From a virus: a DNA stretch of 63,687 nucleotides. Location: the IMG/VR virus record IMGVR_UViG_3300035034_001489, positions 1-63,687 of that record. One strand, given 5' to 3'. A program made the position numbers and the translations under genes. This document shows, piece by piece, positions 8,586 to 34,987 of the stretch; the stretch's first letter is position 1, and each line of letters begins with the position of its first letter. The notes beneath the pieces are model-generated. The model was not told where the DNA came from and ran no database searches. It saw only the letters and a list, made by a program, of their open reading frames with translations.

Positions 8586-8597
8586 AATACCAAAACA

Positions 8598-9888: not shown

Positions 9889-9894
9889 CAGCTC

Positions 9895-10736: not shown

Positions 10737-10795
10737 TTTTCAAAAACCTAAAAAATGAGGTTGACCATCTTAGGAAGCTCACATAGCTTCGCCAC

Positions 10796-11002
10796 ATGCC
10801 GACCGAATCCGGGAGACTGACCATCTCTCAAAAGCTGAAACAGCTCATTAAAAACGACGAACGATCCCTGACAGAGATCGCTTCTTTGTCGGGAGTTGAC
10901 TATGAGACCCTTCGAAAGTGGTTCAGGGGAGACGTTCACAAATTAGATGTCGAGAATGCGGACAAGGTCCACCAAGTTTTAACCAACAGCTCATTAGGAT
11001 AG
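10796..11002 (+). CDS. Cro/CI-type HTH protein, 68 aa
   Basis: The product has 68 residues, almost entirely one HTH domain (SLTEIASLSGVDYETLRKWF at about 21-40), as in small Cro-like regulators. It is the first gene after the 10.7-kb terminator and lies 1 base upstream of the primase-helicase gene, so it may autoregulate the replication operon. A TTGACC (10761-10766) and TAGCTT (10784-10789) pair at 17-bp spacing lies just upstream but is weak. Confidence 0.7.
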   Translation: MPTESGRLTISQKLKQLIKNDERSLTEIASLSGVDYETLRKWFRGDVHKLDVENADKVHQVLTNSSLG

Positions 11003-11003
11003 A

Positions 11004-13589: not shown

Positions 13590-13656
13590 GCAGCTTGACA
13601 ATAGCAAAAACTCTTGAGAAGCTAATGCCTCTCCTAACCAAAACGAAAACAAAACC

Positions 13657-14271: not shown

Positions 14272-14285
14272 TCAAACCAATTGAT

Positions 14286-14306
14286 CGGCCCTCTCTTCGG
14301 GGGCCG
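14286..14306. other. GC-rich hairpin between genes
   Basis: CGGCCC pairs with GGGCCG around TCTCTTCGG. No T-run follows (TTAACAAC), so it may be an RNA-processing or stability element rather than a terminator. Confidence 0.4.
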
Positions 14307-14329
14307 CTTAACAACCCAAAACCATAGAC

Positions 14330-15799: not shown

Positions 15800-15805
15800 T
15801 TTCAA

Positions 15806-15879
15806 TGGCATGTAGCTCAGTGGTAGAGCAAGGGACAAATAACCCCGAGACGTTGGTTCAATTCCAAACTTGCCTCCCA
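15806..15879 (+). tRNA. tRNA-like gene, degenerate anticodon arm
   Basis: The 74-base stretch has the tRNA plan: T8-A9, a perfect D-stem GCTC/GAGC, T-arm GTTGG-TTCAATT-CCAAA and an encoded 3' CCA. It resembles phage tRNA-Met (AGGGACTCATAACCCC in typical genes), but the loop reads CAAATAA, so U33 is replaced by A and the nominal anticodon is AAT. The acceptor stem has T-T mismatches at pairs 1 and 6, and the anticodon stem has A-C and A-G mismatches. It may be a decaying or recruited tRNA-like RNA. Confidence 0.6.
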
Positions 15880-15964
15880 ATTTTCGAAAACAACCCAAAG
15901 GCCATCAGAGCATCACGGCCCGAAAGCTCACAAAAAAGTTAAAGCAAACAAATAGAATAAAACA

Positions 15965-16693
15965 ATGGCTACTAAGACAAAAAAGAAGAACTACTACAAG
16001 GTCCTCATCCCCCACACTCGGGGTGCATTTCTCCACCTCTTTTCTAGGGAGGAATACAAGGGGGAACAAAAGGGTTACTCGATGGTCTGCCTTCTCGATC
16101 CCAAGCGGAAAGAGCATAAGGACACTATCAAGGAACTTAACAAGACAATCAAGAAGGCCGCTAAAGACGGGGGCTTCAAGATTGACGAAGACAACAACCC
16201 TCTGAAGGACGGCAACGACAAGCCAAACCTTGACGGCTACAAGAACATGGTTTTCATCAAACCCTCTTCGAACAAAAACCGTCCAGCGGTCTATGATCGC
16301 GACAAGCGGCCATGCACGGAAGATGATGAACTCCACTACGCCGGGGCTCACTTTGATGTCCTTGTGACAATCACCCATTTCAGCAATAAGCACGGTGACT
16401 TCGTGGCGGTGAACTTGGAGGCCGTGAGGTTTGTCAAACACGATGAACCCTTTGGAGGCGGCGGGTCTCATCACGATGCCGATGAGGACTTCCCAGATCG
16501 TGAGGAAGAGGAGGAAGAGGAGGAAGAGGAAGATGAGGACGACAATCCCAAAAAGTCCAAGAAGGGCAAAAAGGACAAGAAGGGTGCGAAATCTAAAAAA
16601 TCCAAATCCGATGAGGAAGAGGAAGAGAAGGATGACAAGCCTAAGAAGTCCAAGAAAGGCAAAAAGGACAAGAAGGGTAAGAAAAAGAAATAA
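15965..16693 (+). CDS. DUF2815 single-stranded DNA-binding protein
   Basis: The product has 242 residues. The first 165 match the DUF2815 plan of an OB-fold-like ssDNA-binding protein, with beta-rich segments, basic N-terminus TKTKKKNYYKVLIP and aromatic residues at GAHFDVLVTITHF. The remainder is an acidic run (EEEEEEEEEEDEDD) and then alternating Lys/Asp, similar in spirit to SSB tails that recruit partners but much longer. The leader is A-rich (AGAATAAAACA). It lies upstream of the polymerase gene as in other phages with this module. Confidence 0.75.
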   Translation: MATKTKKKNYYKVLIPHTRGAFLHLFSREEYKGEQKGYSMVCLLDPKRKEHKDTIKELNKTIKKAAKDGGFKIDEDNNPLKDGNDKPNLDGYKNMVFIKPSSNKNRPAVYDRDKRPCTEDDELHYAGAHFDVLVTITHFSNKHGDFVAVNLEAVRFVKHDEPFGGGGSHHDADEDFPDREEEEEEEEEEDEDDNPKKSKKGKKDKKGAKSKKSKSDEEEEEKDDKPKKSKKGKKDKKGKKKK

Positions 16694-16719
16694 CCCATTT
16701 CGGCAAAACCAGCCAAAGC

Positions 16720-16748
16720 ACCCCGTGTGTCCGAAAGGGCCACGGGGT
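16720..16748 (+). other. hairpin before the polymerase gene
   Basis: ACCCCGTG pairs with CACGGGGT around a 13-base loop and is followed by TTTCC, 17 bp before the polymerase ATG. It could attenuate transcription or control translation, but the T-run is too short for a confident terminator. Confidence 0.4.
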
Positions 16749-16764
16749 TTCCGGGCAACCGACC

Positions 16765-19089
16765 ATGCCTTCTACGTACCACATCGACTACGAGACAGCC
16801 TCCAGTGTTATCCTGGGTGGAAAAGGGGGCCTCGGAGGCTATCGCTATGCGTGTGATGAATCCACTGTCATCTTGATGTTTGCGATTCGGAAGAACGATG
16901 GTGATGTTTTTGTTTGGGACTCCCAGGACTCTAAGAGTTCTGAGTCTAAGAAAGCTAAGAAAATGTTCAAGCAAGCTTCTAAGAAAGGATCTGTTTGCTA
17001 CGCTTGGAATGCTCCTTTCGAACATGCTGTTTCACGTTATCAGTTGGAGAAACAAGTGGGGATTAAACCAATCAAGATTGAGAATTGGCGTTGCGTTGCC
17101 GCTATGGGTGCAAGGGCTGGAATGCCTCGGGCTCTCGCAGCAGCCGCAAAGATCCTCAACAAAGATGAGGGTTCTCAGAAAGACAAGATTGGCGGGTCAC
17201 TGATAGGAATTTTTTCAGATTTGAACAAGGTTGTAACTCTGAAGCCCCCTATTGGAGCAAAGGATTACACGAAAAGCGAACGAGGCCGGAAACCTGCAAA
17301 CCGAAAAACCTTTTCACCCATTCAAGGATGGTTTGAAGTGACGAAAGAAGGCGTTTCTTTTCATGATGAAATTCTTTGGGACTGGTTGGTTTCTGCTGGT
17401 GGAGAGGAAATGACTGTTCGAAAGGCATGGGACCTCTTCAAAGAATACAACCGTCAAGATGTTATCGTAGAGTCCGAAGTTCATGACAAACTTCACCATT
17501 TTGAATTGAAGGGCCGAATCCTCAAAAGCTTCCAGTTTAGCATGAGGATGAACGACAAGGGGATTCCAGTGAATCGAGAAGCGTTGGCAGGGGCTTTGAA
17601 GATCGTTGAAGCGTATCAAGATAGGATTGGAACGCGCTTCAAAAACATCACGGGTCTTGCCCCTTCTCAGAACATCAAGTTTAAAGCTTGGATGCAGGAG
17701 CGTGGTTATCCATACGATAACTTGAAAGCTGACACTGTTACTAAGGCGATTAAAGACGACCGTAAGCTGATCAAGAAGAAAGCCTATAAGGCGTTAAAGC
17801 TGCTTCAGCTCGTGAATTTTGCAGCCCTGAAAAAGATCCCTACGATGCTGAACGCTGTCTGCCCTGATGGCATGGTTCGCGGGACCATGAGGTGGCATGG
17901 CGCACGAACAGGTCGAGCCACGGGACAGGTTGTTCAGCCTCAGAACATGAAAAAGGCTCAAATGGAAACAGAGCTTGCCTATCGAATGCTTTGTGAGGGA
18001 ACCAGTCTTGAAGAAATTGAAGAGTTTTGGGATTCTCCCCTTGAAGTGATTGCTTCGTGCGCCCGACACTTCATTCATGAGCCGGGAACAATGTTCTTCG
18101 ATTCCGACTACACGGGTGTTGAGGCCCGGATCACCCCCTGGCTCGCTGGGGATAAGAAGAAAATGGACTCGATCCTTCGTGGTGAATGTCAGTACCTTAA
18201 GGTTGCAGAGACAATCTACAAGGTTCCATACGACAAGCTCAAGAGACTCTATAAAGCCAAGGATGCAAAGGTGGGCAAATGGCGAACTACTTCAAAGCCC
18301 GTCGAGCTGGGTTGCTGTTTTGGGGTTGGAGGACGCGCTTTGCAGAAAGATCTTCGCGAAAAGTATGGAGTGAAGATTTCTCTCGATGAGGCCAAGGCCA
18401 TCGTCAAAACCTACCGGGAAAACAGCTCTGAAACAGTCGATGCTTGGAGGGCTATTGAAGATGCCGTTAAAGCAGTGATCCCGGTCGATGACAGGATTGA
18501 CCCAGCCGACAGGAAGAAAGCGACATCACCTCCACCAGAAATGCCCCGCCATGGTTACAAGAAGCCAATCACGATTTTGAATGGTCGAGTCACCATTGGG
18601 ACCAAAAAGACGGGAGGGATCAGATACCTCTTCATTGAGCTACCCTCGGGGCGTCGGCTCTACTATCCCCGAGCCAAGTTTAAGTGTGTGTGGCGCGGCT
18701 ATTCCGAAGATGACTTGCTGGAAGTCAAAGTGCAGAGTATTGAGAAGTGGAAGAAGATGAAAAAAGCCAAGGGGTCCTGGCGGAAAGAAATTCGGTTTTG
18801 GGGCTCCAAAGACAGCAAGCCTTTCAGCTGGGTCGCAACTTGGGGTTCACGTTTCTTTGAGAACATCGTTCAAGCAATCGGCGTCGATCTCCTCGACTAT
18901 GGTTGTCTTCAGTTGGAGAAACATGGACACGACATCTTCATGATCGTGCATGACCAAACTATTGGTCGTAAGAACGGCCTTGGTCGCAAACACTTTAAGA
19001 AGCACTTTTGCGCTCGTGAGAAATGGTCTAAGACGTTCCCTCTTGACGCTTCTGTTGACTACGCTAAATACTACCTCAAAGAAGATTAA
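16765..19089 (+). CDS. family A DNA polymerase with 3'-5' exonuclease
   Basis: The product has 774 residues. The exonuclease domain has IDYETAS (D8, E10), a second motif in YAWNAPFEHAV and YNRQDV near 232. The polymerase domain shows MRWHGARTGRATG (template and primer contacts), motif A FFDSDYTGVEAR (D446, D448), a motif-B region LGCCFGVGGRALQ and motif C HDQ at 729-731. The family usually has HDE; here Glu is replaced by Gln while the catalytic Asp is kept. It would be the replicative polymerase. Confidence 0.9.
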   Translation: MPSTYHIDYETASSVILGGKGGLGGYRYACDESTVILMFAIRKNDGDVFVWDSQDSKSSESKKAKKMFKQASKKGSVCYAWNAPFEHAVSRYQLEKQVGIKPIKIENWRCVAAMGARAGMPRALAAAAKILNKDEGSQKDKIGGSLIGIFSDLNKVVTLKPPIGAKDYTKSERGRKPANRKTFSPIQGWFEVTKEGVSFHDEILWDWLVSAGGEEMTVRKAWDLFKEYNRQDVIVESEVHDKLHHFELKGRILKSFQFSMRMNDKGIPVNREALAGALKIVEAYQDRIGTRFKNITGLAPSQNIKFKAWMQERGYPYDNLKADTVTKAIKDDRKLIKKKAYKALKLLQLVNFAALKKIPTMLNAVCPDGMVRGTMRWHGARTGRATGQVVQPQNMKKAQMETELAYRMLCEGTSLEEIEEFWDSPLEVIASCARHFIHEPGTMFFDSDYTGVEARITPWLAGDKKKMDSILRGECQYLKVAETIYKVPYDKLKRLYKAKDAKVGKWRTTSKPVELGCCFGVGGRALQKDLREKYGVKISLDEAKAIVKTYRENSSETVDAWRAIEDAVKAVIPVDDRIDPADRKKATSPPPEMPRHGYKKPITILNGRVTIGTKKTGGIRYLFIELPSGRRLYYPRAKFKCVWRGYSEDDLLEVKVQSIEKWKKMKKAKGSWRKEIRFWGSKDSKPFSWVATWGSRFFENIVQAIGVDLLDYGCLQLEKHGHDIFMIVHDQTIGRKNGLGRKHFKKHFCAREKWSKTFPLDASVDYAKYYLKED

Positions 19090-19093
19090 AGCT

Positions 19094-19237
19094 ATGAGAG
19101 TTATCAAAAGAAAAAGAATTGGTAAATTGTGGTCCTACACTCTTTTGAAGTGTGGGACACGAATAGGCTTCAGCCCCGACCCTAGAATAATATGCCTCCC
19201 CCTCACTAAGTTTGGAATACTTCTTCAGAAGAAATGA
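19094..19237 (+). CDS. small basic protein, 47 aa
   Basis: The product has 47 basic residues (MRVIKRKRIGKLWSY...) from the ATG 4 bases after the polymerase stop. It ends in an ATGA overlap with the VRR-NUC gene. It may bind nucleic acid. No family is recognised. Confidence 0.5.
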   Translation: MRVIKRKRIGKLWSYTLLKCGTRIGFSPDPRIICLPLTKFGILLQKK

Positions 19238-19521
19238 GTGACCTTTCTGAAAAACAAGTTGAAGCAGCCCTCGTAAAGTATGCACGGGCCAATGGTGTTT
19301 TGACCTACAAGTTTCATGGCCCTGGTGCTAGGGGGAAGCCTGATCGAATTTTCATTGCGAACCATCAAACTCTCTTTCTGGAGATCAAACGCCCCAAAGC
19401 AAAGCCTTCTGTTTTGCAGCTCAAAAACATCTCAGACATCAGGAACCATGGAGGACTCGCCGACTGGTGTGACGGGATCATGAAGGGCAAAGAAATGCTC
19501 AACAATTACCTCGATCTCTGA
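19234..19521 (+). CDS. VRR-NUC domain nuclease
   Basis: The product has 95 residues, the usual length of standalone phage VRR-NUC proteins. Key segments are an N-terminal helix with E (KQVEAALVKYA), GKPDRIFI (metal-binding Asp) and FLEIKRPKAK (the E-x-K catalytic pair), followed by a Q and helix. It is probably a Holliday-junction or flap endonuclease acting with the helicase encoded immediately downstream, whose start overlaps its stop. Confidence 0.85.
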   Translation: MSDLSEKQVEAALVKYARANGVLTYKFHGPGARGKPDRIFIANHQTLFLEIKRPKAKPSVLQLKNISDIRNHGGLADWCDGIMKGKEMLNNYLDL

Positions 19522-21044
19522 TGTCCACAATTTACAACCCATTTCAAAAGCCCTATAAATATCAGGGAAAGAAAATGATCCCTTGGCTTGAGGATCGAGA
19601 CTTTGCGGCTCTCTTTGCAGATCCCGGACTCGGGAAGTCTGTCACCACTCTCAAAGCTTTTGATACGAACTTCTGGGATGGGAGAACGAAAGGAGCTTTG
19701 ATTGTCGCTCCGATTCGGGTTTGCAACATTACTTGGCCCTCACAGGCTTCTGAGTGGGACTTTAGCCAGTGGATGAGAGTTGCCAACATGCGGACCCCCG
19801 AAGGCATCAAAATGTGGCACGAAAAGTCAGCAGACCTCTACCTTGTCAACCCAGAGATGCTCGCCAGTCGGGTGGTCCGGGTGAAATGCAAGGTGTGCCG
19901 CCAGATTCCGAAACTCACCAAGAAGTGCAAACACTGCGATGATGAAGGGCTCGTTGCACGGAAGTATAAAGGGTTCTGCGAGCGTTACCTCAAGGGTCAA
20001 CGTCAAAAAGACCTCCCAATCGACATGCAGGTCATTGACGAACTAAGTCTTGCTAAGAATCGAAACGCAAAGAGCTTTGGAGCTTTGAGAGCATACCGTG
20101 AGGCTTTCAACATTTTCTGGGGACTGACAGGGTCCCCGACCCCCAACAGCTACCTCGATCTTTGGAATCAGATGCGGATGCTGGACGATGGTGAAAGCTT
20201 GGGTCGGAATTTCTTTCAGTTTCGCAAGAGATTCTTCCACGAGACTGACTACATGGGTTATAAGCACGAGATCAATGATGGGGGTAAGGAGGCGATTCAC
20301 AAAAAACTTTCTAATATCGCTTTGGTCATGAAGAGTGAGGACTATTTGAACGTCCCAACTCCAGACTATCTGGACGAAGAGATTAAACTCGGAGTCCAGG
20401 CAATGAAGGCTTACCATACTCTGAAACAGGAACTTCTTCTTCAAATCGAATCAGGGGAGATCGAAGCTCTGAATGCAGCGGCCCTGACTCAAAAGCTTCT
20501 TCAAGTGACTGGAGGAACTGTCTATGGGTCGGGTCACAATGACGAAGAGGACGCTAAGAAAACTCCTCTTTACATTCATGATAAGAAGCTCAAAGCCCTT
20601 GCAACGATTCGGAAAAGACACCCCAAAGAGCCTTTGTTGATCTTGACTCAATTCAAGCATGAGAGGGCGCGAATCCTCAAAGCTTTCCCGGAAGCGAGAG
20701 AGTTCGATGAACGTGATATGGACAAATGGCAAAGGGGGAAAATCCCGATGTGGATTTGTGACCCTCGTTCAATGTCCCACGGAATTGACGGAATGCAAAA
20801 AGGAGGTCGAATTGCGGTTTGGTTCACCTTGACTTATTCCTATGAATCCTATCTTCAAACCAACGCTCGATTGGTCCGAACAGGGCAAAAGCTTCGATCC
20901 TTGATCTACCGTATCATTGCCCAAGACACTGTTGACGAAGCAGTTGCTGAAGCCTTGAGGTTCAAAAAGGAAGGACAGAATGGACTCTTTGCAGCTTTGA
21001 AGAATCTTCAGCAGTTGGAGAAGTCGATGAAGAGAGCTGCTTGA
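19521..21044 (+). CDS. SNF2-type helicase/ATPase
   Basis: The product has 507 residues. Walker A is ADPGLGKS (33-40), the DEAD-box-like motif is VIDELS (about 171-176), motif III is GLTGSPTPN and the second RecA domain holds LVRTGQ (motif VI). A four-Cys zinc-ribbon insertion (CKVC...CKHC) sits near residues 117-137, between motifs I and II. Phage SNF2 proteins are usually paired with VRR-NUC and polymerase genes, as here. It is probably a DNA translocase in replication or recombination. Confidence 0.85.
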   Translation: MSTIYNPFQKPYKYQGKKMIPWLEDRDFAALFADPGLGKSVTTLKAFDTNFWDGRTKGALIVAPIRVCNITWPSQASEWDFSQWMRVANMRTPEGIKMWHEKSADLYLVNPEMLASRVVRVKCKVCRQIPKLTKKCKHCDDEGLVARKYKGFCERYLKGQRQKDLPIDMQVIDELSLAKNRNAKSFGALRAYREAFNIFWGLTGSPTPNSYLDLWNQMRMLDDGESLGRNFFQFRKRFFHETDYMGYKHEINDGGKEAIHKKLSNIALVMKSEDYLNVPTPDYLDEEIKLGVQAMKAYHTLKQELLLQIESGEIEALNAAALTQKLLQVTGGTVYGSGHNDEEDAKKTPLYIHDKKLKALATIRKRHPKEPLLILTQFKHERARILKAFPEAREFDERDMDKWQRGKIPMWICDPRSMSHGIDGMQKGGRIAVWFTLTYSYESYLQTNARLVRTGQKLRSLIYRIIAQDTVDEAVAEALRFKKEGQNGLFAALKNLQQLEKSMKRAA

Positions 21045-22207: not shown

Positions 22208-25200
22208 TCACTCTTCAGATTCCTCACGGAGCTGTGCAGGTGTCTTCAACCCAAGTTGCTCGTTGTATTTAAGGACACCTTTACGCCAGTAGCCAGACAT
22301 AGTATCACCGAAGTGCTTATCATCCATAGAGTCTAGCTCATTACGATTCTCTCTAAACAATCTAAGAGTTTCCTTAATACGAGCCTGCTTGGCAACCTCA
22401 AGAATGTCCGCGCTATATTCGCGACCATTGTCTTCCAACTTTTTCTTGAAAGCGGGGATGTTGAATGAACCCCCGAAATACTTTCGTCTTTCAAACTCTT
22501 CAATGGCTTCGGCTTTCAAGGGGTCTCTGCTTTCCCTTTTTACTTTCCAATAGACAGGGAGACCCAGCCCTTTCAAAGCATCTCCAGCCGTCCATTCAAG
22601 TTCTTCGCCAAGGACGTTCTGCATCAAGACAACCCCATCAGCTCCTGGAACGACGTAGAAGGGGTTGTTATACCACCATGCTGCATCCGAAGCTTTCTCG
22701 TCCACTTTGGGTTGCGCTCTCTTCACTGATTTCAGAAGTCCCGAGAAGGGGACAAATTGATCAGCTCGTGAGAGAAGCGTTCCGCCAAGCCCCTTTCTTT
22801 CGAAGTCCTTACCATCTCCCTTGATCTGGGAGACGCCAGGAATGTAGAGTTCGAACAGTCCTTTTTGAATGTAGAGAAGCTCCTCCCCAAATCTGTCTTC
22901 AGATGAAGCTTTCGTGAGTCGGTTGAGGGCCATCGCCATGACAGCAGTTGGAAGGAGAACCTGAGCGAAGCCTTTATCAAGCCGGAATCGCTGGTCCCCA
23001 ATCGAAAGAGTGTATTCATCCCACTGGTTATGGTTGGCGTTCCAACGCTTAATCTCGTCAGCATCACCAGAGGGGTAGGACAGTGTCATCCACAGCCACT
23101 TGTCCTCGTCTTCTAGTTCATCGTTGGCTTTGAATGCCGCAGCCAGGGCAAACACTGCACCGTTCGAAAACAAGATCGCAGCTTGGCGTCTTTTGAAGAG
23201 CCAGTCGGATGTGATGCTCTTATAGACTTCGGCTCTTCTTTCGGGAGAGAGCCTTTTGTAATTTGCCCACTTTGCAATGCTGAGTCCTGGAGTCCACCAT
23301 GTAAGATACTCCATGACGATTCCCACCGTTCGAACAGCCGGGAGAGCCCAAGCTAATGGAACTCCGGCACGTTGAGCTGCAATCACCCCATCAGAAAGAG
23401 CATTAGTGACAATCCCAATGTAGGTGCCGTCGGTTACTCCAGTTCCAATTTGTGCTTGAACATCGGCAACCGACTCTTCAAGCAGCGTGGAGGAAACGCC
23501 GCGACCAATCAGCTCATTCATGATACCTCCTTCGGTTCGGTCATGGATCTCTAAAGCGATAAGGTCCGGGTCCGTGATCCCCAAGTTGTCCCTCATGTGA
23601 GCGGCAACTGCCTCAGCGTCGGCACGAGCTGCTTGGACATAACCGTCCATATCCTCTTTGGTGATCCCAATGGATTTGGCTTCGCGATTTGCTAGAATTG
23701 AGGCTTGAAACTGGGAGTAGAAACGAGTGACACCAGAGTCAACAGCAGAGAGCGCACGAAGAGTGAGGAACTGAATTGAGGTCATTGAAGCAATGATCTC
23801 TTTCGCTTGGTCACGGGTGATTTTCGCTCCTTTCTTCCCTTTCATGAGACGAAGGCGACGACGGGCGATATCATAGCGTTCGGTGAGTGCATCCAAGAAC
23901 ACTTGATCACTCAGGGCCTTTTCTTGGCCTCCTTGAAGCTGGTCGGCGTAAGCGGCCCCTTTTTTGAACGTCGCTCGAATTTGCCTGAGCGCGGGAACGA
24001 TTAGTTTGAAGAACTTCCCCCAAATGTCGAGGACCTCTGAGGGACTCCTACGCGCTACCAAGGCGATTGTTGTTTCACTCACGAGTTGGCCGCTCAAGGC
24101 AAAAAAGGCAGCAACAAAGCTGATTCCTTGGGATGACCCGGCTGAATAAACAGAGCCACGGAACCAAGCGTTCCAGAACTCAGCCTTAGTTGGCGGGACA
24201 CCTACCGCAGCAGAGATGATTCGAGCTTGCTCAAAGAGGAAAGCATGAGACGCGAAGGAAGCCAGTCCGAGTCGGTCGATGTTTCGTTGCAGCTCAACCA
24301 GTCGGGTGGTCTCTTTTGTGGTCAGACCATTCCAACCCAATAGTGCAGAAACACTGGTTGCGAAGGTGTATTTCGGGTCAAGAATTTGAAGTCTGATTGC
24401 CTTCTCAATTTGTTCTTTTGTGAGGTTCTTGCCAGCACCCAGAGCTTTAAAAATAGGCTCTGCTGCTTTCATTTTTGCTTCGAATAACTTGTTCCCAAGT
24501 TGAGCTTCAATGTTCCTCGCTACTGACTTGACCTGAGCTTCTGGTAGGTCAAACCTTTCCCTGATGATCTGTTCAGCAAGCTCGATGCGTTCAGCTTCGG
24601 TGCTGACTCTTCTAAGAGGGTTGTTGATCACATCTTCCCTAATGATTTGAGCAATGCTTCTCTTTTCAGATTTCTTCCGTGGCTTGACAGGGTTGAGAAT
24701 TTTCTCAGCCTTGGAGACTTCTGACTTCAGTTTTTTGAGACTTTTGCGGGTCTCTTCGACTTTCGCTTTAGCAGCGGCCCTTCGTTTTTCAGCTTGTCTC
24801 CGGGCAACGGCTTTGGTTGCGAGGTTGGAGATTTGATTGGGCGTCAGCAATGGCTTGCCATCACGGTCTTTTAAGTTGGCAAGGTCAGTTTCCAATTCTG
24901 AAACAGTTCGCTCCGGTTTCTTGGGGTTTGTGAACTCATTGTAAAGCTGCTTTAATGTGGGGAGTTTCTTACCACTTTTCTTAGCGGGACTGTTGTCGAT
25001 CTCATCAATGGTTTTATCAAGACTGTCTTTAGCCTTTTTCGCTTTCTTGGCAGCGGCTTCATTGAGACGTTTTGCTTTATCTTTTGAAGTCTTGTCGGCC
25101 TTGAGATTTGCCGCAAGATCAGCTGCTTCGACAGCAGCTTTTCGGGCTTCAATGGATTTAGCAACAGCAGCGACTACCTGCTTCTTCGTCAGAAGTGGTG

Positions 25201-28200
25201 TGTTCCCATCAGCCGTTGTGAGTGCTGTTAGCTCTTTGGTTAAAGCTTCAACCGACTTTTCATCAACTTTAGGATCAATGAACTGATCAAAGAGTTTCTT
25301 GAGGGTTTGCTTTTTGAGTCCTTCTTTCTTTTCAGCTTTCTGGCCAAGTTCATCGACCAACTTGTCTCCTTTTTCTTTGATTCTTTGAAGCTTATCCTTG
25401 GCTTTTTTGGCTTCTTGCTCTGCTTTGTCAGCTTCCTTTTTGGCTTCCTTTCGAGCATCTTCAGATTTTTTGAAATCGTTGATTTTTGTGTGGGACTCGA
25501 AAAGTTGTTGAGCTGTTTCAGGTGTGACACCCAGATCCGTTGCTTCTTTTATGAAAGCATCTTCATCCAAGTCCTTTTCAAGAAGCTCATCAAATCGTTT
25601 TTCTAATTCGGTTTTTACTTTTGGCCGCTTGGGGCTCCCGAGGTTATTAGCTTTCCGAGTAACACGGACAGCAAGTGCATCAGCCGTTGTCTGCTTACGA
25701 GCTTTATTAAGCTTTTTACGAACAGGTTTAGGGATTCCTTCAGAACCCAAAAGAGAAATAACTTCCTCCATAGTGTCGAGTCGGGCAAAGAGATCATCAT
25801 TGTTTTTGTTCTGCTTCTGAAAGTCCTCAAAAGCGTCTTGGGCTTTTCGTTGAAACTTGGCTTTGGAATTTCCAAACAGGGGGGCGAGGAGCTTTTCAAT
25901 CTGTCGGAGCGCGACATCAATTCTTCTTTCGGCTTTTCTGAGCTTTTCAGCTTGCTCCGGGTTCTGCATTTCGCCAGTTGCCTTTTCAGAGACTTCATCT
26001 TTTTCAGTTTCCGTGTTCTGAGATTTTTTGTCGATCCCGTCCGCCGTTTCAGCCGCATCGGAGCCAAGAGCATCTTCAGCGACTTTCTTCCGACCTTTTG
26101 CTTCAAGCTCAAACAGAGTGACGAGAGCGCCACCGTCAAAACTTCTGAGGCTTCGCAAAGCGAGACCCAGCTCTGAAGCTGAGTCGCCATGCTTGTCGAA
26201 CTCCAAGAGGAACTTGATGTCTTGGGCAAGTCGATAGCCACTATCTATGAGGCTTCTCGCAGTGTCAACATCACTCTCGATGAAACGGGAGGCGTAAGCA
26301 AAATAGGCGGCACGAGCGACACCTGTGGTGGCGAGAGAGGCATTCCCTTGGAACCCCGCATCTACAACCCTCTGTTGTAATCGCTCAATAAAATCAACGT
26401 CAGTAAGGTTTGCAAGGAACTCCAAAGCTTGGCGAGATCCATCTTTATCGAGAGGTAAGTTGCGCCAATCAAAAACATCTTTGACTGCCTTTTCAACGGC
26501 AACAAACTTTCGAGTTTCTTTGTCCCGGTTGGGGTCAAAAGTCCCCTGAACTTGGGGGTTCTTTCCAGCCTTACCTTGCTTGAATGTTTTCCGGGGCTTG
26601 TCACTTTTCCCTTTCTTCTTGCGGCTGAACCTAACGCTTGAAGATTCTGAATCCATTTCACCTCCAACAATTGAGTCGATCAAAAAAGATTCGGCAGCTT
26701 CGTTTGCAGCTTCGACATCATTGAGGAACTTAGCTGTCCCTTGGTTGTTGATCTTGAGAAACTTCAAAAGGTCTCTGAGAAATTGAGCAATCTTTTGAAC
26801 GGCTGAGGGGACATTCTCCGAAAGGTTTTGCCAGAACGCAGGATCAACGGCTCTGTCAGCCAGAAAGTCTGCAAGAAACTCTTCCTTGTTACCATCAAAA
26901 GTTCCAGTCTCTCTTTCGTTGTTCTCTTCAATATATTCTCCAAGTCGAACATCAACGGCCTCAGCAAACTCTTGATAAGCTTCTTCATTAGTGGCTCTAA
27001 AAGAGTGGAGAAGCTCATGAAAGAACACAGATAGCTCCGGTTTGTCTGTTTTGCTGGACAGTAGAATGATGTCTGGGTTGTTAGCATAGAAAAGGCCATT
27101 TTGTTCGAGTCCATCGACAACAACTACTTGGCGTCCAAACTTTCGACCTGTCGCCACTGCTGCTAGGTGGCTCTCAGAGGGTTTGGCCGTGAGGGTGACT
27201 CTGGATGCTGCTTCACGAGCTTCAACGGCATCAGGCCCCGTGTCTCGTTGCAAGTTGGCAACCACTTCGGCAAGAGCTTCTTCATTTGATCGTCCAGGAG
27301 GTGCTTGTTCTTCGGGAGGCAGTGGCTCAAAAGAAGATTCCTTTTCACTTTCAAACTGAGTCTTTAGAGCTTTCCGGGCTCTGGAGAGGTCTCCTCGGAC
27401 TGTCGTTTCAGTGACACCTCTACGGGCCGCGATGTCTTTGATGGACTCACCATTGGTGACAGACTCGATGGCTTCTCTTTGTTTTGCTGGCAGGGCTTCA
27501 ATTGCCTTGGAGACTTGATCGAGTTTTTCCCGATTTTCGACTTTGGAATCAGCCGTGTCATCGGATTGGTTGTTTAGAACATCTTCATCAGTAGTAATTC
27601 GTCCTTCGGCTTTTACACGACCACCCTTAACTCTGGTTTGGTCAACAACGGCATTACGGGCAATAGTAGAAAGGCCTCTATCAGATGTAGAAGGGTCTTT
27701 AATAAGTTGGTCAACAACGGCATCACGAGCTGCATCAATTAGTTCGATCTTATCACCCTTAACAGATCTCTTAGCAATGCTCTCAGCTTTTTGAAATGTA
27801 TCTTGATCTACTTCAGAAGGGGTTTCCTCTTGGGTCTTTGAGTTGTCATAAACATCTCCGGCCAGTTTTCCAGCTTTGGAGTAAGATTCGACCGAAACAT
27901 TTGGAGCCACTCTCTGGATTTGCGTTCTAAGAGAATCAGTGATTTCAGAGTGAGCTTCGTTTACCAGGACACCCCCAATATCATCTGACGAACGAATTAC
28001 ATTGACCCCTGGTTTTGCCACGAGAACAAAAGGTCCGTCGTTGTAGGTATTCCCCGAGGCAGTCGCTCCACCATTCCCTTCAGATCCTGTCAGTGGTGCT
28101 GTGTCCAGTTTTCCACCCCCTCTGTTTGGGTCGATCCCATCAGTGAAAATGCTGATAAGACTTTCAAGCCCCCCGCTCAAGGTTGATGATTTGGACATGC

Positions 28201-30517
28201 CGTGGGCTGCGAGCAACTCACCATCACCACGTTGCCTCATAACCCGAAGGGCGTCATCAAACCCCGTCAGTGATGCTTCGTTGGCGTTACCCCCTTCAAA
28301 CCATTCGTCAGACCGAATGTTTCTATTCGCTCGATCCCACTCTGCGGCTGCTTCTTTCAATCCGGCTTCGATGCCTTCACCGGAAATGTTGTTCGTCTCA
28401 GTTTCTGTCACCTCTTCAGGATCTGTCACCTCTTCAGGATCTGTAACTCTTTCAACCTCAGTAGTCTCTTCACTACTTTGCTCTGAATTGACGGGTTCAG
28501 TGTCAGTTGTCCGGTCCGCCGCTGTTGGGTCGGGTCCATCCGCTCCACCAGCTTCTTCCCGAAGCTCCACAGCCTCCACCGCTGCACGCACGGCACTACC
28601 CCTGGTCTCCTCCCCGAGATCACCCATTGCGTCGTCAGCGACCCGCAAGAGCTGGCCATCGGTGAGCTGGGAAGTGGGCTTCGACTTGAGATTGGGAAGA
28701 CTGGTGACAGCCGGACCACCTCCACCCATGGCAGCTCCGAGAGCAAAAGCATGAAGGGCTCCCTCCACATGCTGGTGTGTGGTTGCATCTGGATTGAGTT
28801 TTTGCTGAGTCGTAAGGGACGAAAGAACAGAGTCTGTTAGCTCTTCGATGCCTTCGTTTGCTGCCCCTTTCAAGATCGTTCCGAAATATTCTTTGAGGCT
28901 GTTTCGGAACCCGACTCGAAGCTCTCCAGTAACGAGTCCTTCAATGCCGCTCCTGTTTCCGCCAGCAGCCGCAACGCCAGCAGTGATCAAAAAGGATTGG
29001 AGTCCAAGCGTCAGAGCTTCATCGGGGTCAAAACCCTTGGCGAGAGCTTCGTTATAGGTCCTAGTTCCACTTCCAAGTCCTGAACCAGCAGCAGCACCGA
29101 AAAGGGTCGCAGCTTTCTTACCATTGGTGAGGATCTTTGGTGCAGCCTTTCCGGTGATTCCGAAAAGACGAGCGATTCGAGAGACACCTGTTGCAGCACC
29201 ACTACCAGCACCCGCACCCCCACGGGCCAAGAGGAGATCTGGCAGGATAGCAGTGAGATCACCCGAAAAGTTGGCAAGGTCACTTGCTTGACGGAACTCA
29301 TTGATTTTCGCATCTCTTTCTTCAAGGAACTGAGTCCCATCGGCCATGCGCTTTGCAAACTCATCTTTCCCAAAAGCACCTGCAAGCGATGAGACGAGTC
29401 CCCCCGATAGGCTTCTAAGAGACGCTGCTAATTTCTGAGTCGCAACACCGTCAAAGCCAAAGAAACCCGAGTTCTCTTCTTTCAAGGTCCTCATGGCTTG
29501 CTCAACTCCTTCGGGGGTGCTGAGTAGATCTTCTTGGAATTCCTTCTGTTCGTTGGTGAAGTTCCTGAAGAGAGCCCGACGTTCGCCCTCTGGGAGGACA
29601 TCAAGATCATTTGACTCGATGGCGTCCCTCAACACTTGGGCAACTTGTTCGGAAGCCTCTTTCTTCATCGCTGGCGCTTGGGCCATGAATCTTTTCTTCG
29701 CTGCTGGAGCCACTCCAAGGCCATCTACAACTTTCTCAATTTCCGAGATAGATTGAGAAGCCAATGCTTTTCCATCGGCGGTGACTTCTCCGAGTCTGTT
29801 GAGCTTGATCCCTTCGGGGTTGTCTCTGAACTGATCTTCGAAATCAAGGATGTCGGAGACCTCACTGTTTACCTCATCGGGAGACTTGTCACCTCTATCC
29901 AGAAGGCGTTTTGAAATCTGATCACGGGCCGAACGTGCAATTTCTAACTGATTTCTAAAGACAGAGCCAGCGTCACCATCGACAACGATACCACTAGCGA
30001 CAGCTAGAGCGTCATCAAGGGTCTCACTACTGCTTCTCTTAAAGTCGTCGAAGACACTGTCATCCCTTGTTTCATCGAGTCTTTTCTCACGAGCTTCTTG
30101 ACGGGTGAAATCATTGTTGAGAACTTCTTGAGCATGGAAAGAAATGTTTTCCTCTACATGAACTCGCCCCTGGAACTCGCTATTAATGTTGGTAACACGA
30201 GCCGCATGGCGACCAAATGCTTGTTCACGAAAAGCTTTTGTGTCCTCCTCAGTCCCTCCTTCAAAACTTTGAATCTCCTTGCGAAGTTCTTGGAGGCTTT
30301 TGTTCTGTTTCTGAAGAAAGTTTTGGCGTAAAGGCGTTTCGTTTCGGAAGGATTCATCGAGATCAACCCGCTGCTTTAAAAAGAAAGGCTCCGTTTCGTG
30401 AAGATCCGAAGTTTCAGCTTCAGGGTCTTTGAAAAAATTATCGAGATACCTCTTCTTATTGGATGAATCAGCGTTCTTATAAATTGGGTCACTGATGATG
30501 TCGCTAAGAGTTGCCAT
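22208..30517 (-). CDS. giant internal virion (polyvalent) protein with sigma-like and zinc-peptidase motifs
   Basis: The product has 2769 residues; its ATG overlaps the previous stop. Gly/Ala-rich hydrophobic stretches at about 430-610 and several spans in the last 750 residues suit a membrane-penetrating ejection protein. Residues about 740-900 hold an ART-like stretch (HGMS, then FTDGIDPNRG), weakly supported. Residues about 905-1054 look like an ECF sigma factor: region 2-like STIARNAVVDQ and region 4 with LPAKQREAIE and VTETTVRGDLSRARKAL. FFHELLHSF (HELLH at 1167-1171) with a downstream Glu is a zinc-peptidase motif. Residues 1240-2000 are charged coiled coil with about 115-residue repeats. 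The plan fits large polyvalent proteins injected with phage DNA. Confidence 0.8.
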   Translation of the reverse strand: MATLSDIISDPIYKNADSSNKKRYLDNFFKDPEAETSDLHETEPFFLKQRVDLDESFRNETPLRQNFLQKQNKSLQELRKEIQSFEGGTEEDTKAFREQAFGRHAARVTNINSEFQGRVHVEENISFHAQEVLNNDFTRQEAREKRLDETRDDSVFDDFKRSSSETLDDALAVASGIVVDGDAGSVFRNQLEIARSARDQISKRLLDRGDKSPDEVNSEVSDILDFEDQFRDNPEGIKLNRLGEVTADGKALASQSISEIEKVVDGLGVAPAAKKRFMAQAPAMKKEASEQVAQVLRDAIESNDLDVLPEGERRALFRNFTNEQKEFQEDLLSTPEGVEQAMRTLKEENSGFFGFDGVATQKLAASLRSLSGGLVSSLAGAFGKDEFAKRMADGTQFLEERDAKINEFRQASDLANFSGDLTAILPDLLLARGGAGAGSGAATGVSRIARLFGITGKAAPKILTNGKKAATLFGAAAGSGLGSGTRTYNEALAKGFDPDEALTLGLQSFLITAGVAAAGGNRSGIEGLVTGELRVGFRNSLKEYFGTILKGAANEGIEELTDSVLSSLTTQQKLNPDATTHQHVEGALHAFALGAAMGGGGPAVTSLPNLKSKPTSQLTDGQLLRVADDAMGDLGEETRGSAVRAAVEAVELREEAGGADGPDPTAADRTTDTEPVNSEQSSEETTEVERVTDPEEVTDPEEVTETETNNISGEGIEAGLKEAAAEWDRANRNIRSDEWFEGGNANEASLTGFDDALRVMRQRGDGELLAAHGMSKSSTLSGGLESLISIFTDGIDPNRGGGKLDTAPLTGSEGNGGATASGNTYNDGPFVLVAKPGVNVIRSSDDIGGVLVNEAHSEITDSLRTQIQRVAPNVSVESYSKAGKLAGDVYDNSKTQEETPSEVDQDTFQKAESIAKRSVKGDKIELIDAARDAVVDQLIKDPSTSDRGLSTIARNAVVDQTRVKGGRVKAEGRITTDEDVLNNQSDDTADSKVENREKLDQVSKAIEALPAKQREAIESVTNGESIKDIAARRGVTETTVRGDLSRARKALKTQFESEKESSFEPLPPEEQAPPGRSNEEALAEVVANLQRDTGPDAVEAREAASRVTLTAKPSESHLAAVATGRKFGRQVVVVDGLEQNGLFYANNPDIILLSSKTDKPELSVFFHELLHSFRATNEEAYQEFAEAVDVRLGEYIEENNERETGTFDGNKEEFLADFLADRAVDPAFWQNLSENVPSAVQKIAQFLRDLLKFLKINNQGTAKFLNDVEAANEAAESFLIDSIVGGEMDSESSSVRFSRKKKGKSDKPRKTFKQGKAGKNPQVQGTFDPNRDKETRKFVAVEKAVKDVFDWRNLPLDKDGSRQALEFLANLTDVDFIERLQQRVVDAGFQGNASLATTGVARAAYFAYASRFIESDVDTARSLIDSGYRLAQDIKFLLEFDKHGDSASELGLALRSLRSFDGGALVTLFELEAKGRKKVAEDALGSDAAETADGIDKKSQNTETEKDEVSEKATGEMQNPEQAEKLRKAERRIDVALRQIEKLLAPLFGNSKAKFQRKAQDAFEDFQKQNKNNDDLFARLDTMEEVISLLGSEGIPKPVRKKLNKARKQTTADALAVRVTRKANNLGSPKRPKVKTELEKRFDELLEKDLDEDAFIKEATDLGVTPETAQQLFESHTKINDFKKSEDARKEAKKEADKAEQEAKKAKDKLQRIKEKGDKLVDELGQKAEKKEGLKKQTLKKLFDQFIDPKVDEKSVEALTKELTALTTADGNTPLLTKKQVVAAVAKSIEARKAAVEAADLAANLKADKTSKDKAKRLNEAAAKKAKKAKDSLDKTIDEIDNSPAKKSGKKLPTLKQLYNEFTNPKKPERTVSELETDLANLKDRDGKPLLTPNQISNLATKAVARRQAEKRRAAAKAKVEETRKSLKKLKSEVSKAEKILNPVKPRKKSEKRSIAQIIREDVINNPLRRVSTEAERIELAEQIIRERFDLPEAQVKSVARNIEAQLGNKLFEAKMKAAEPIFKALGAGKNLTKEQIEKAIRLQILDPKYTFATSVSALLGWNGLTTKETTRLVELQRNIDRLGLASFASHAFLFEQARIISAAVGVPPTKAEFWNAWFRGSVYSAGSSQGISFVAAFFALSGQLVSETTIALVARRSPSEVLDIWGKFFKLIVPALRQIRATFKKGAAYADQLQGGQEKALSDQVFLDALTERYDIARRRLRLMKGKKGAKITRDQAKEIIASMTSIQFLTLRALSAVDSGVTRFYSQFQASILANREAKSIGITKEDMDGYVQAARADAEAVAAHMRDNLGITDPDLIALEIHDRTEGGIMNELIGRGVSSTLLEESVADVQAQIGTGVTDGTYIGIVTNALSDGVIAAQRAGVPLAWALPAVRTVGIVMEYLTWWTPGLSIAKWANYKRLSPERRAEVYKSITSDWLFKRRQAAILFSNGAVFALAAAFKANDELEDEDKWLWMTLSYPSGDADEIKRWNANHNQWDEYTLSIGDQRFRLDKGFAQVLLPTAVMAMALNRLTKASSEDRFGEELLYIQKGLFELYIPGVSQIKGDGKDFERKGLGGTLLSRADQFVPFSGLLKSVKRAQPKVDEKASDAAWWYNNPFYVVPGADGVVLMQNVLGEELEWTAGDALKGLGLPVYWKVKRESRDPLKAEAIEEFERRKYFGGSFNIPAFKKKLEDNGREYSADILEVAKQARIKETLRLFRENRNELDSMDDKHFGDTMSGYWRKGVLKYNEQLGLKTPAQLREESEE

Positions 30518-31440
30518 TACTGTCCGAGGGGTGTGTCATTTGGGTTCGGGGTAAAGACACGGCCTTTGACCCTGAAAGTTCCGTTCATGATTTCAGTTCG
30601 TTTTCCTTCCTGTTCAGAAATACGATCTCGCAAGGCAGACACTTCTTTAGGGTCTGTTGTCTTCGCAATTTCTCGTCTCAAAGAGTCAATCTCAACTTCG
30701 ACATCGTTGAGTTGGGCTGAACTCACTGGGTCTAGTTCAGCTGGATCAATTGAGGCTCCGTTTTGAACAGGCAGCACAGACCTCCCAGCTCCTGCAAGGT
30801 TCCCAAGGTTGTCAAGAGCTGTTGCTGAAACACCCAGTGTTGGGTCTGAGAGACCTACGAAAGCTTTTTGCTTCCCAGCGAGATCCGGGGCGTTGTTAAA
30901 AGCTCCCAAGAGTTCATTCACTTTGGCATTGTTCGCTGTGGCGAGCTTCTTGGTTTCACCAAGCTCTGTCCTCTCTGCCCGAATATCTTCGGCTTTGAGT
31001 TTGTTGATGTCGATGCGGGAATCAGACTCCAATTTTGATTGAGTTGCAGCTTGCCCTTGGAGTTTGAGACCCTCTCCGGCAAGGGCATTCCGTTCGCCAC
31101 CCAAGAGGAAGTTCAGGCTTTGCCCTCTGGCTTGGAGGGCGCGTCCTTCAGCTCTCCCTTGCTCTGAAACGTTGAACTGCCTTTGGCCCTCACCAAGGCT
31201 TGCGTCAAATCGGCGACGTCCTTCATCGAAATCAGCCCGACGTTGACGGAGGTTGATTTCACGACGACGCTCAGTTTGAAAATCTCGCTCTTGTTGCGCT
31301 TGTAGGTTCACTTGGTTCCTTCCATCTTGAAAAGAGTTGGAGAGAATGGAGGAAAGTGTTGCACCTCCTTGAGCTAGGAGAGATGTCAGGACATTGCCCT
31401 GTTGGCCACCACTTGAGGAAGATGAAATTGGAACGATCAT
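30517..31440 (-). CDS. coiled-coil internal virion protein
   Basis: The product has 307 residues. A Ser/Gly-rich N-terminus precedes a long Arg/Gln/Glu-rich helix (about 45-170) with little aromatic content, then a second coiled coil near 240-290. Proteins like this, encoded immediately before a giant virion protein, are usually ejected core components. Its stop overlaps the start of the giant gene (TAATG), so the two are translated in a linked way. The function is inferred from position and composition. Confidence 0.6.
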   Translation of the reverse strand: MIVPISSSSSGGQQGNVLTSLLAQGGATLSSILSNSFQDGRNQVNLQAQQERDFQTERRREINLRQRRADFDEGRRRFDASLGEGQRQFNVSEQGRAEGRALQARGQSLNFLLGGERNALAGEGLKLQGQAATQSKLESDSRIDINKLKAEDIRAERTELGETKKLATANNAKVNELLGAFNNAPDLAGKQKAFVGLSDPTLGVSATALDNLGNLAGAGRSVLPVQNGASIDPAELDPVSSAQLNDVEVEIDSLRREIAKTTDPKEVSALRDRISEQEGKRTEIMNGTFRVKGRVFTPNPNDTPLGQ

Positions 31441-31864: not shown

Positions 31865-32950
31865 TCAGCCAAGGCCACTCTTAGAGCCACTGTCCCTGGC
31901 ACTCGATGGATTGACGTTTTGCTGCTGGTAGTTTCCACCAACGCTTGGAGAGTTGTAAGAACTTCGAGTGAGGTCAGGCCCGGCTCCTTGGACTCCTCTC
32001 ACCTGACCACCTCCGAAGACATCACCAACGGCTGAGATGAACGGCTGCAACGTCGCAAGATCATTCGGAACGTAACCGTTGGTTGCTGCAACTTTCGCCA
32101 TCTCTGATTGCAGAACAGTCACACAACGATTCAAGCGAACTTGAAGTTTTGCCAACTCTGCTGGGGGCTTCCTGGCTTTGGCATTGTTGAAATTTTGAAG
32201 AGAGTTCTGAATGAGTTGAGCTTGTGTGACTGCAAGGTTGAGCCGTTGTTCGGGAGTGTGCATCATCTCCCGGATGTCAGCTTGGCGACTGATTGGTGAT
32301 ACATCCCTGTTCAGCGTCCCGAGAAGATTCCGGTGTTCAGCACGGCCTTCAGCTTTCATGCGAAGAAACGAAACGCCAACGGCTCTTGCAGTCATGTGGC
32401 CGCATCCTCCGATTTTCCCTAAGAGGCAAGATGCTTCTGCAACGTCCCCGAGGATTTCACGCATGTCGGAGATGGGGGTGTTTCCCCTCATCATGTCACT
32501 TACGGAGCGGGAATGATTGTCCATCGTCGAAACGTATCTTGAATCGAGAGCAATGGATCTGATGATGTCGTTTTGTTCGTGCAGCCTGTTGATGCACCTT
32601 GCCCAAGCATCCGCTCCGGGGATGTTGATAGTGTTGTCAGCAATGGTGTCTCTCAAAAGTTGGACAGGCTCAATGGGAACATACTCAGCAGCTTCAGGAA
32701 CGTCGTCATAAGCATCGTCGAAGAGAGGCATTTGATTCTCAATACAACCCACGTAACGAGAGACACTTCTAGTGATCTCAGCTTTCTTATCATCAGAGAT
32801 GTCGTCCCAGTGGTCTTTCTGTCTGTCAGCCAGTTTGATGTTGGCAATTGCTTGAGCTGCTGGGAGCAAAAGAGCTTGAACCCAACTCAAGGCGTTGGAC
32901 GCTGAATAGACAACAGCGGCTGCGGCGTGGTCATAGTTGAATGCGCTCAT
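31865..32950 (-). CDS. putative virion protein, 361 aa
   Basis: The product has 361 residues from ATG 32950, which overlaps the previous stop as ATGA. An in-frame ATG at 33106 lies inside the upstream gene and is rejected. The product is mostly helical with a Gly/Ser/Asn-rich tail (SVGGNYQQQNVNPSS). Position before the internal virion proteins suggests a tail or core structural role, perhaps an adaptor. No domain is recognised. Confidence 0.6.
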   Translation of the reverse strand: MSAFNYDHAAAAVVYSASNALSWVQALLLPAAQAIANIKLADRQKDHWDDISDDKKAEITRSVSRYVGCIENQMPLFDDAYDDVPEAAEYVPIEPVQLLRDTIADNTINIPGADAWARCINRLHEQNDIIRSIALDSRYVSTMDNHSRSVSDMMRGNTPISDMREILGDVAEASCLLGKIGGCGHMTARAVGVSFLRMKAEGRAEHRNLLGTLNRDVSPISRQADIREMMHTPEQRLNLAVTQAQLIQNSLQNFNNAKARKPPAELAKLQVRLNRCVTVLQSEMAKVAATNGYVPNDLATLQPFISAVGDVFGGGQVRGVQGAGPDLTRSSYNSPSVGGNYQQQNVNPSSARDSGSKSGLG

Positions 32951-33729
32951 AGAATAGGGGGTCTTTTTACTTTCTCTTGGCGAAGATCGTTCCAGTCTGT
33001 TTTCTCCTGCCACCAAATGTTGGCCGCTGGCATCTTCGGGTCGTCCCAAGGCTTTCGAGGTGTGCTGTAATGGAGAACAAAACCCCAATCTGCTGGTTTC
33101 TCCCACAGGGGGCAGCAGTTCCAGCTATAAGGCCATTCCCTAATCCGACCTTCAACTGCAAGGGCAATGGAGAGCTGCTCTTCCCAACCCAATTTGTTTT
33201 GGTAGCCAACAATCTTTTCCCAAGTGTTTTCAGCTCGCATCTGGGAGAGGTTGAACATGCAGCCAAGCCAAGGCCACTTAGCTTCGTAGAGGTGGCTGAG
33301 ATCTGAAGGGAGTTGACGTTGGAACCACTCGGAGGCAGCTTTGATGATTGTTTCCTCATCCAACCTTGCGGCCATGAGGTTGTCTCCCATGTCCTGCTTG
33401 AAGAACTCCGCAACGTCCATTAGGCAAAGCTGATCCCAGTCCAGCATGAGTGCCTTGTCCCAATCGGTGAAATCACGAACACCAGAAACCCTGTCAAAAC
33501 AAGGCAGTGTGATGTGAGCCGGGATTGTCCCCACCAATGGGTTGACCACATCCAGGAACTCCACCTTCAGCCAACCTTGGTAAGCTGTGAAGTCACTTGG
33601 TTTGTCAGACCCACGATAATAGCACCTGATGTGAATAGGCACACTGGAACGTCGGAGAATAGACGCCACCAAAGTTGCGTGGGGTCCCAACCCCTTATTG
33701 TCCGTTCCTAAAATGATTTTCGCGGTCAT
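32947..33729 (-). CDS. GT8-like glycosyltransferase
   Basis: The product has 260 residues from ATG 33729. An N-terminal Rossmann-like strand (AKIILGTDNKG) precedes LMLDWDQLCLMD (DWD at 97-99), a DxD-type metal and sugar-nucleotide site. It also has FNLSQMR and a late His in VLHYSTPRKPWDD, as in GT8 and related GT-A enzymes. It probably transfers a sugar to a virion or host-surface acceptor. It lies divergently from the GT25-like moron gene, 79 bp away. Confidence 0.65.
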   Translation of the reverse strand: MTAKIILGTDNKGLGPHATLVASILRRSSVPIHIRCYYRGSDKPSDFTAYQGWLKVEFLDVVNPLVGTIPAHITLPCFDRVSGVRDFTDWDKALMLDWDQLCLMDVAEFFKQDMGDNLMAARLDEETIIKAASEWFQRQLPSDLSHLYEAKWPWLGCMFNLSQMRAENTWEKIVGYQNKLGWEEQLSIALAVEGRIREWPYSWNCCPLWEKPADWGFVLHYSTPRKPWDDPKMPAANIWWQEKTDWNDLRQEKVKRPPIL

Positions 33730-33808: not shown

Positions 33809-34987
33809 ATGCTCATGGAATCACCAAAAGAAGAGCTGTCACTATCAGTCATTTGCGCGAATCTCCGTCGCCGAAAAGACCGACGTTTTTATGTGGAAAA
33901 CAAGATCAAGAGTATTTTGGGGCAACCTGTTGAGATTCTGACAGCAGTGGATGGTGATGAGGTTTCTGAAGCGCGTATTGCGAGGTACCCGAAAGGGGTC
34001 AGCACTTCCAGTTTTGCCGTTCGGATCACAAAGCTCTTGGCACTTCGAAATTTCTTGAGATCTGGAAAATCCCATCTGCTCTTTTTGGAAGACGATGTCG
34101 CCTTGTTACCGGAATTTGAAGAAACTCTCAAAAGAGCTATGAAGAGCGATGGTGACGTTGTTTATTTGGGTGCTAACCACGTAGAGCCTCCGACACCTGG
34201 TGAAGAATGGGACCACTGCACTTATGTCTATTCTAATCACGCTTTACTCTTTTCAAGAGAAGGAGCTTTGAAAGCGCGTCGTATGCTCTTAGAGTGGAAC
34301 TTCCCTCAAAGTGATGTTGAGTTTGCCGAAAACATTCGTTCAGGGAAGCTCAAAGCTCTTTGTCCTCGAAAGTTGGTCGCTTACCAACGCATGACCAAAA
34401 GCAATAACTGTGGCCACCCAGGAGACCTCTCACTTGCCCGAGGTCTCTCGATGGACCTAACAGGGGATGATGTCGCTGTTCTCGAAGCAGCTTTAGTTGG
34501 GTGTTATTCAGCCATCGAGTGGGGGACTGGCGGGACTTCTGCTTTCATTAGTCAATGTCTCGGGTTCTTCGGGATGCTAACCAGTGTTGAACACAATAGC
34601 GATTGGGCGTCCACCACACGAAATCTCCTAAAGACTAAAGGGGTTTCCACATACCGTCTCTTGGTCCGTCCTCCCCAATCGTCCCGCCCCGTCGAAATGT
34701 ATAACCGTTTCTCTGTTCGAGAACTATCCAGCTACATCAACGCTCCGGGACGCTACGTGCAGAATGGAAGGGTAGATCTGGCTCTCGTGGATGGAAGGCA
34801 GAGGATTGAGTGTGCCTTAGCTTCAGCAAAATGGTTGAGAAAAGGCGGAAAACTTTTGATCCATGATTTTTGGGGAAGAGCTAGATACAGGGCTCGTCTT
34901 CATGAATTGCTGGAACTTTTTGACTATGTTCTTGAGTCCCCGAATCTTGGTGATCGACAAGGGTTTGCTCTCTTCACCAAGAAGTAA
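33809..34987 (+). CDS. GT25 glycosyltransferase-methyltransferase fusion (moron-like)
   Basis: The product has 392 residues. Residues 12-210 look like GT25: VICANLRRRKDRR, HLLFLEDDVAL (EDD at 94-96) and a later SREGALKARRML helix. Residues about 225-392 look like a class I SAM methyltransferase: AIEWGTGGTS as the glycine loop and VDLALVDGRQR then KWLRKGGKLLIHDF. It is the only rightward gene in the 41-kb leftward arm, ending base-to-base against the GNAT-like gene. That makes it a candidate moron with its own promoter, which I cannot identify. A start at 33815 is also possible. Confidence 0.75.
   Translation: MLMESPKEELSLSVICANLRRRKDRRFYVENKIKSILGQPVEILTAVDGDEVSEARIARYPKGVSTSSFAVRITKLLALRNFLRSGKSHLLFLEDDVALLPEFEETLKRAMKSDGDVVYLGANHVEPPTPGEEWDHCTYVYSNHALLFSREGALKARRMLLEWNFPQSDVEFAENIRSGKLKALCPRKLVAYQRMTKSNNCGHPGDLSLARGLSMDLTGDDVAVLEAALVGCYSAIEWGTGGTSAFISQCLGFFGMLTSVEHNSDWASTTRNLLKTKGVSTYRLLVRPPQSSRPVEMYNRFSVRELSSYINAPGRYVQNGRVDLALVDGRQRIECALASAKWLRKGGKLLIHDFWGRARYRARLHELLELFDYVLESPNLGDRQGFALFTKK

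Follow-up and report, generated by a model that had tools for sequence, protein, structure and literature searches.

An ECF sigma-like module within the giant, putatively ejected protein of a phage

The giant gene, its neighbours and its relatives

The window analysed here is the whole of IMG/VR virus record IMGVR_UViG_3300035034_001489, 63,687 nucleotides in length. It bears a direct terminal repeat of 127 bases (positions 1-127 and 63561-63687), and the genome is therefore probably complete. A frame of 2769 codons is open without interruption from 22208 to 30517, the coordinates at which the initial annotation had correctly placed a giant internal virion protein; it lies on the minus strand. 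The features discussed below are collected in Table 1. Approximately 200 residues without any domain match separate the N-terminal part of the protein from the sigma-like module. An ART or GNAT domain was sought in residues 640-905, but profile similarity was absent and the AlphaFold2 model was useless (pLDDT 35.6). Nor did Pfam searches of the giant protein reveal an RNA polymerase domain. The initial statement that the genome encodes no phage RNA polymerase was only weakly borne out, as PF00940 gave no match but the positive control was also silent.

Table 1 Features of the giant gene and its upstream neighbours (window positions; residues are those of the giant protein)
Feature	Positions	Strand	Basis
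Giant ORF, 2769 aa, polyvalent ejected-type protein, last gene of the leftward late operon	22208..30517	-	open frame; same slot in the 7 relatives holding its start
Conserved N-terminal domain, residues 438-630	28628..29206	-	hhalign against six relatives, E 3e-13; translated matches, E ~1e-7
ECF sigma-like module, residues 905-1056	27350..27805	-	Pfam/NCBIfam/ECF profile, alignments, AlphaFold2, Foldseek
Shortened sigma2-like part, residues 905-965, three predicted helices	27623..27805	-	alignments, AlphaFold2; not significant by sequence alone
Sigma70 region 4 (sigma4 helix-turn-helix), residues 1000-1051	27365..27520	-	Pfam Sigma70_r4_2, 3.7e-11
Zincin-like metallopeptidase domain, residues 1158-1255	26753..27046	-	hhalign against relatives' HExxH domains, E 2.4e-4; weak DUF6782, 0.024
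HELLH zinc-binding motif, residues 1167-1171	27005..27019	-	sequence
Lysine/glutamate-rich region, probably coiled-coil, residues 1480-2000	24518..26080	-	composition by eye
Probable virion/internal protein upstream of the giant gene	30517..31440	-	blastp; N-terminus kept in 8/8 relatives
Probable internal virion protein upstream	31865..33106	-	blastp; 39-45% identity in 8/8 relatives

Searched one sequence at a time against phage records and IMG/VR, the giant protein, portal, terminase and helicase gave no close relatives, and the family was reached only via an alignment of DNA polymerases and a two-sequence alignment of terminases. The eight relatives obtained in this way have terminases with approximately 50% identity, and their common gene order starts with terminase and portal, continues with several more conserved proteins and arrives at a giant ORF. 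Where complete, this ORF encodes 2948-3488 aa; it is cut by the ends of the record or stretch in G016, G017 and G018, and it is not seen in G022. The N-terminal domain is common to all seven relatives whose record holds the start of the giant gene, with residues 421-637 of the window protein matching theirs both in translated searches and by profile comparison. The latter detected no homology at the C-terminal end.

Between the N-terminal part and the long charged region, the modules of the relatives differ from one to another. They include GNAT-like modules (weak matches), ART-PolyVal domains (up to 3.8e-11) and, at residues ~1314-1388 of the giant protein of G020 (L137 2093-12556, minus strand), a DUF7178 cargo module (5.8e-32). 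Some of the relatives' proteins carry an HExxH domain and others lack the motif. In the window protein the HELLH domain stands directly downstream of the sigma module and resembles the HExxH domains of the relatives; its match to DUF6782, a putative metallopeptidase family, is weak. Searches with Sigma70_r4_2 and with an ECF profile found no sigma module in any of the relatives. Elsewhere, all Sigma70_r4_2 matches in 57 other phage records fell in open frames of 315 aa or less. L015 is a standalone phage ECF factor. Seven weak matches of the sigma segment to fecal contigs were rejected as further examples, since they were standalone ECF/sigma-like regulators or a response regulator and none lay in a giant protein.

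Polyvalent proteins are large, multidomain and delivered early, and often contain zincin-like metallopeptidases that probably serve in processing; one of their themes is to jump-start transcription or replication (Iyer et al. 2017, PMC5512222). The initial annotation had likened the giant protein to these fusions, and the comparison fits: judged by its slot at the end of a probable late operon, the N-terminal domain common to relatives, the metallopeptidase and the variable effectors that relatives carry as cargo, the protein belongs with the polyvalent ejected proteins. Its sigma module sets it apart from those described; the main text of PMC5512222 nowhere uses the word ‘sigma’, and in the open-access literature we found no account of a polyvalent or virion protein with such a domain.

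The structural gene block also encodes a Glycosyltransferase family 25 protein (7.6e-18) at 39464-40072 and a GT25/methyltransferase-like protein at 33809-34987.

The sigma-derived module

Both peptides on which the sigma-factor-like segment had initially been recognised were found, STIARNAVVDQ at residues 950-960 and LPAKQREAIE...VTETTVRGDLSRARKAL at residues ~1007-1051. The Pfam family Sigma70_r4_2 matched region 4 with 42.9 bits against a cut-off of 25.7, the only match to this family in the genome, and many ECF models of NCBIfam matched residues ~950-1054 (best 9.9e-13). The isolated segment scored 46.4 bits with TIGR02937 (sigma70-ECF; cut-off 42.9), positions 57-164 of the model spanning residues 950-1054 in the order sigma2-linker-sigma4 and with ECF spacing. 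A home-built ECF profile, made from standalone ECF-type proteins only, gave 71.5 bits on the giant protein, the highest score among 2000 shuffled copies being 8.9 bits; its region-4 half alone gave 60.9 bits versus 7.0 for the best shuffle. The segment is 26-34% identical to standalone ECF proteins encoded in genomes of Rhodoblastus, Limnohabitans and Bacteroidales. In region 4 the consensus LP.KQREAI, GESI.DIA...GV...TVR..L.RAR+.L is retained at approximately 30% identity to known ECFs, which suggests selection. The assignment of region 4 to the sigma family is secure, and residues 950-1056 are homologous to ECF sigma factors at a level well above chance.

Region 2 fared differently. Pfam Sigma70_r2 found no match in the giant protein, and a region-2-only profile reached 3.2 bits, under the best shuffle at 10.5. 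Alignments with the compared ECFs show that the N-terminal helix is missing, that the stretch from 2.2 to 2.3 is shorter and that the core-binding signature DxxQE of region 2.2 reads DAARD, with D kept, Q changed to R and E to D. Helix 2.3/2.4 is retained (IARNAVVDQTR). The assignment of a region 2 is a qualified one and depends on what this helix adds to the joint score, together with the fold prediction.

The fold was predicted by AlphaFold2 from the single sequence, without an alignment. The sigma segment had a pLDDT of 72.3, as opposed to 35.6 for residues 640-905 in the same mode; the sigma2 part was modelled as three helices with block values mostly between 77 and 91, and the sigma4 helices had a pLDDT of ~90, with block values up to 94. 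Foldseek against the PDB placed ECF factors at the top (E. coli SigE, 1or7, 3.5e-4), with matches spanning the whole module, and the best 50 matches were sigma chains or transcription complexes, the sigma-NepR complex 5uxx among them. Global TM-scores were low (~0.3) and the rmsd high, as is expected if two domains are misplaced relative to each other; the model therefore supports the two domains but not the way they are arranged.

Like group 4 sigma-70 factors such as SigE, the module has the sigma2-linker-sigma4 order, helix 2.3/2.4 and the sigma4 consensus; unlike them, it is embedded in a protein of 2769 aa. To call it a complete ECF sigma factor, as had been done, is too strong, because sigma2 is trimmed and escapes detection by sequence and because the core-binding signature is altered. 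It is a compact module derived from an ECF factor, in which sigma4 and helix 2.3/2.4 are intact, and not a textbook ECF factor.

A possible role on entry and its alternatives

We propose, with a probability close to even (about 0.47), that the giant protein acts as a polyvalent effector with a sigma cargo. Synthesised late, it would be packaged alongside the DNA and enter the next host by ejection. The middle of the protein would constitute a variable cargo slot, occupied here by the ECF sigma-derived module followed by the zincin-like metallopeptidase, which would probably cleave the chain while it is being packaged or once it has entered, and so free the sigma module. Once freed, the module would engage the core of the host RNA polymerase, sigma4 on the beta flap and helix 2.3/2.4 at the -10 element, biasing initiation to phage promoters before the expression of any phage gene. 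The data establish the homology of the module and of the peptidase, the position of the module, and the slot and N-terminal domain held in common with relatives, whereas the steps from packaging and ejection through cleavage to core binding and the choice of promoters are inferred. Delivery of the giant protein by the virion is likely, and a sigma activity on entry is plausible.

Counting in favour of this proposal are the sigma homology and fold, the retained consensus of region 4, the lack of a second region-4 match in the genome, the HELLH domain next to the module, the precedent of published polyvalent proteins, the number of housekeeping-type promoters in the early region, which is no higher than expected, and the filling of the relatives' slot with GNAT-like or ART-PolyVal domains. 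Families of both kinds have been discussed as modifiers or redirectors of host RNA polymerase (PMC7824862), and a sigma module placed there would fit the theme by recruiting the host core enzyme instead of modifying it. Counted against the proposal are the shortening of region 2, the change of Q to R in the core-binding signature, the failure to find a cognate promoter set, with TTGAC-type sequences ahead of several operons, and the occurrence of the fusion in one phage only, the relatives being without the module. The phage proteins T4 Alt (ART) and Rac (GNAT) likewise bring about changes in host RNA polymerase, and Alt is injected, but they are polymerase-modifying enzymes and the segment described here is a sigma-derived putative binding module. 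Standalone phage sigma factors (phiEco32/7-11 type; L015) also belong to the sigma family and would redirect host RNA polymerase, yet they are small, free and made after infection, in contrast to a module fused to a probable ejected protein.

The parallel with phage N4 that the initial annotation had drawn is a good one, for in almost all cases an N4-like RNA polymerase has a metallopeptidase domain as its fusion partner (PMC5512222). Both systems combine a transcription module and a metallopeptidase in a giant protein, in a late-gene neighbourhood and with presumed action at entry; the difference is that a relative of the sigma subunit would need the host core RNA polymerase. We put somewhat below an even chance, and hold tentatively, the view that the protein is a ‘virion sigma factor’, in which an ECF-type sigma is packaged in a self-processing giant protein, injected, and reprograms host RNA polymerase at time zero without new protein synthesis, as a counterpart of the N4 virion RNA polymerase. 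The known injected jump-starters of transcription are whole polymerases (N4) or, as with T4 Alt, enzymes by which the host RNA polymerase is modified. Delivery of a sigma module, if true, would be a third and far cheaper route, and would mean that sigma domains can travel as cargo of an ejected protein.

The state of region 2 lends itself to a different explanation, which we consider rather unlikely: the module is no longer a full sigma, and its intact sigma4 docks on the beta flap, or together with the housekeeping sigma, in order to redirect or inhibit host transcription in the manner of T4 gp33 or other RNA polymerase appropriators. A near-consensus sigma4 beside a trimmed sigma2 that has lost DxxQE is what this would produce, and minimal single-HTH phage sigma and gp33-type proteins have been described (PMC7824862), although the preservation of helix 2.3/2.4 and the predicted ECF-like two-domain fold speak against it. 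Polyvalent proteins also bear assorted HTH DNA-binding domains (PMC5512222), and the module could be such an element, acting in genome ejection, tethering or packaging and having no role in transcription. This we think improbable, the match being specific to sigma region 4 with flanking 2.3/2.4 at ECF spacing and not to a generic HTH. The position of the gene at the end of a probable late operon would suit action in the producing cell, where the module, before packaging, would serve as a late sigma or bring RNA polymerase to the late genes, and would end up in the virion only incidentally. Sigma-type phage proteins do usually drive middle or late genes, but fusing a late sigma to a giant probable virion protein would be an odd design, and the slot in relatives holds predicted host-modifying enzymes; we give this possibility a small chance.

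Absence of the module from all surveyed relatives, together with a third-position GC of 0.34 in the segment versus 0.45 in the whole gene, could point to a recently captured, non-functional insertion. We regard this as very unlikely: the frame is open, consensus residues are kept at ~30% identity to ECFs, and the peptidase stretch that follows is similarly low in third-position GC, so the bias is not specific to the insert. Titration of a host anti-sigma factor, with the module as a sigma mimic that releases a host stress sigma, has a precedent in PhyR, whose ECF-like domain is used against NepR, and would agree with the sigma-NepR complex found among the fold matches. A pure decoy would have no need of the sigma4 DNA-recognition helix residues, which are kept, and we consider this reading very unlikely as well.

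Promoters and other intergenic elements

The early region was not enriched in sigma-70 consensus promoters (12 in positions 1-20000 versus 13.6 expected), and TTGAC-type hexamers were seen by eye ahead of the primase gene and of several leftward operons. The element GGTTGACC occurs 7 times versus 2.5 expected, with several copies inside genes. Early promoters sharing a non-housekeeping motif, as envisaged at the outset, did not emerge as a sigma-specific set, the best repeated element having only two copies. That element lies in the divergent intergenic region 3092-3760, where two inverted element pairs (33 bp, 97%; 41 bp, 93%) are arranged in like order and with nearly equal spacing on both arms. 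We consider this region a candidate phage promoter/operator pair and the one clear non-housekeeping candidate; none of the relatives showed a similar inverted pair, and no link between these elements and the sigma module was found.

A hairpin leader (GCCTGTCGTC...GCGACGGGCTTAAGGGGTGCAATG), present in six copies, precedes early start codons on the plus strand between 306 and 4813. A Shine-Dalgarno-like AAGGGG is located in or adjoining an outer stem, the folding energies range from -29 to -36 kcal/mol, and the leaders are possibly an element of translation control or RNA processing. At 15806-15876 (plus strand) there is an Rfam tRNA match of 38.5 bits that is absent from the ARAGORN output and has an odd anticodon arm. 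Lastly, iteron-like tandem repeats of ~28 bp (GGGGTAACGCACAGATTCGCTATGGATT) occupy positions 63150-63240, between leftward and rightward genes, and are perhaps an origin; their core GGGTAAC(N)GCAC recurs at 3339 and 3466, giving 4 sites versus 0.01 expected.
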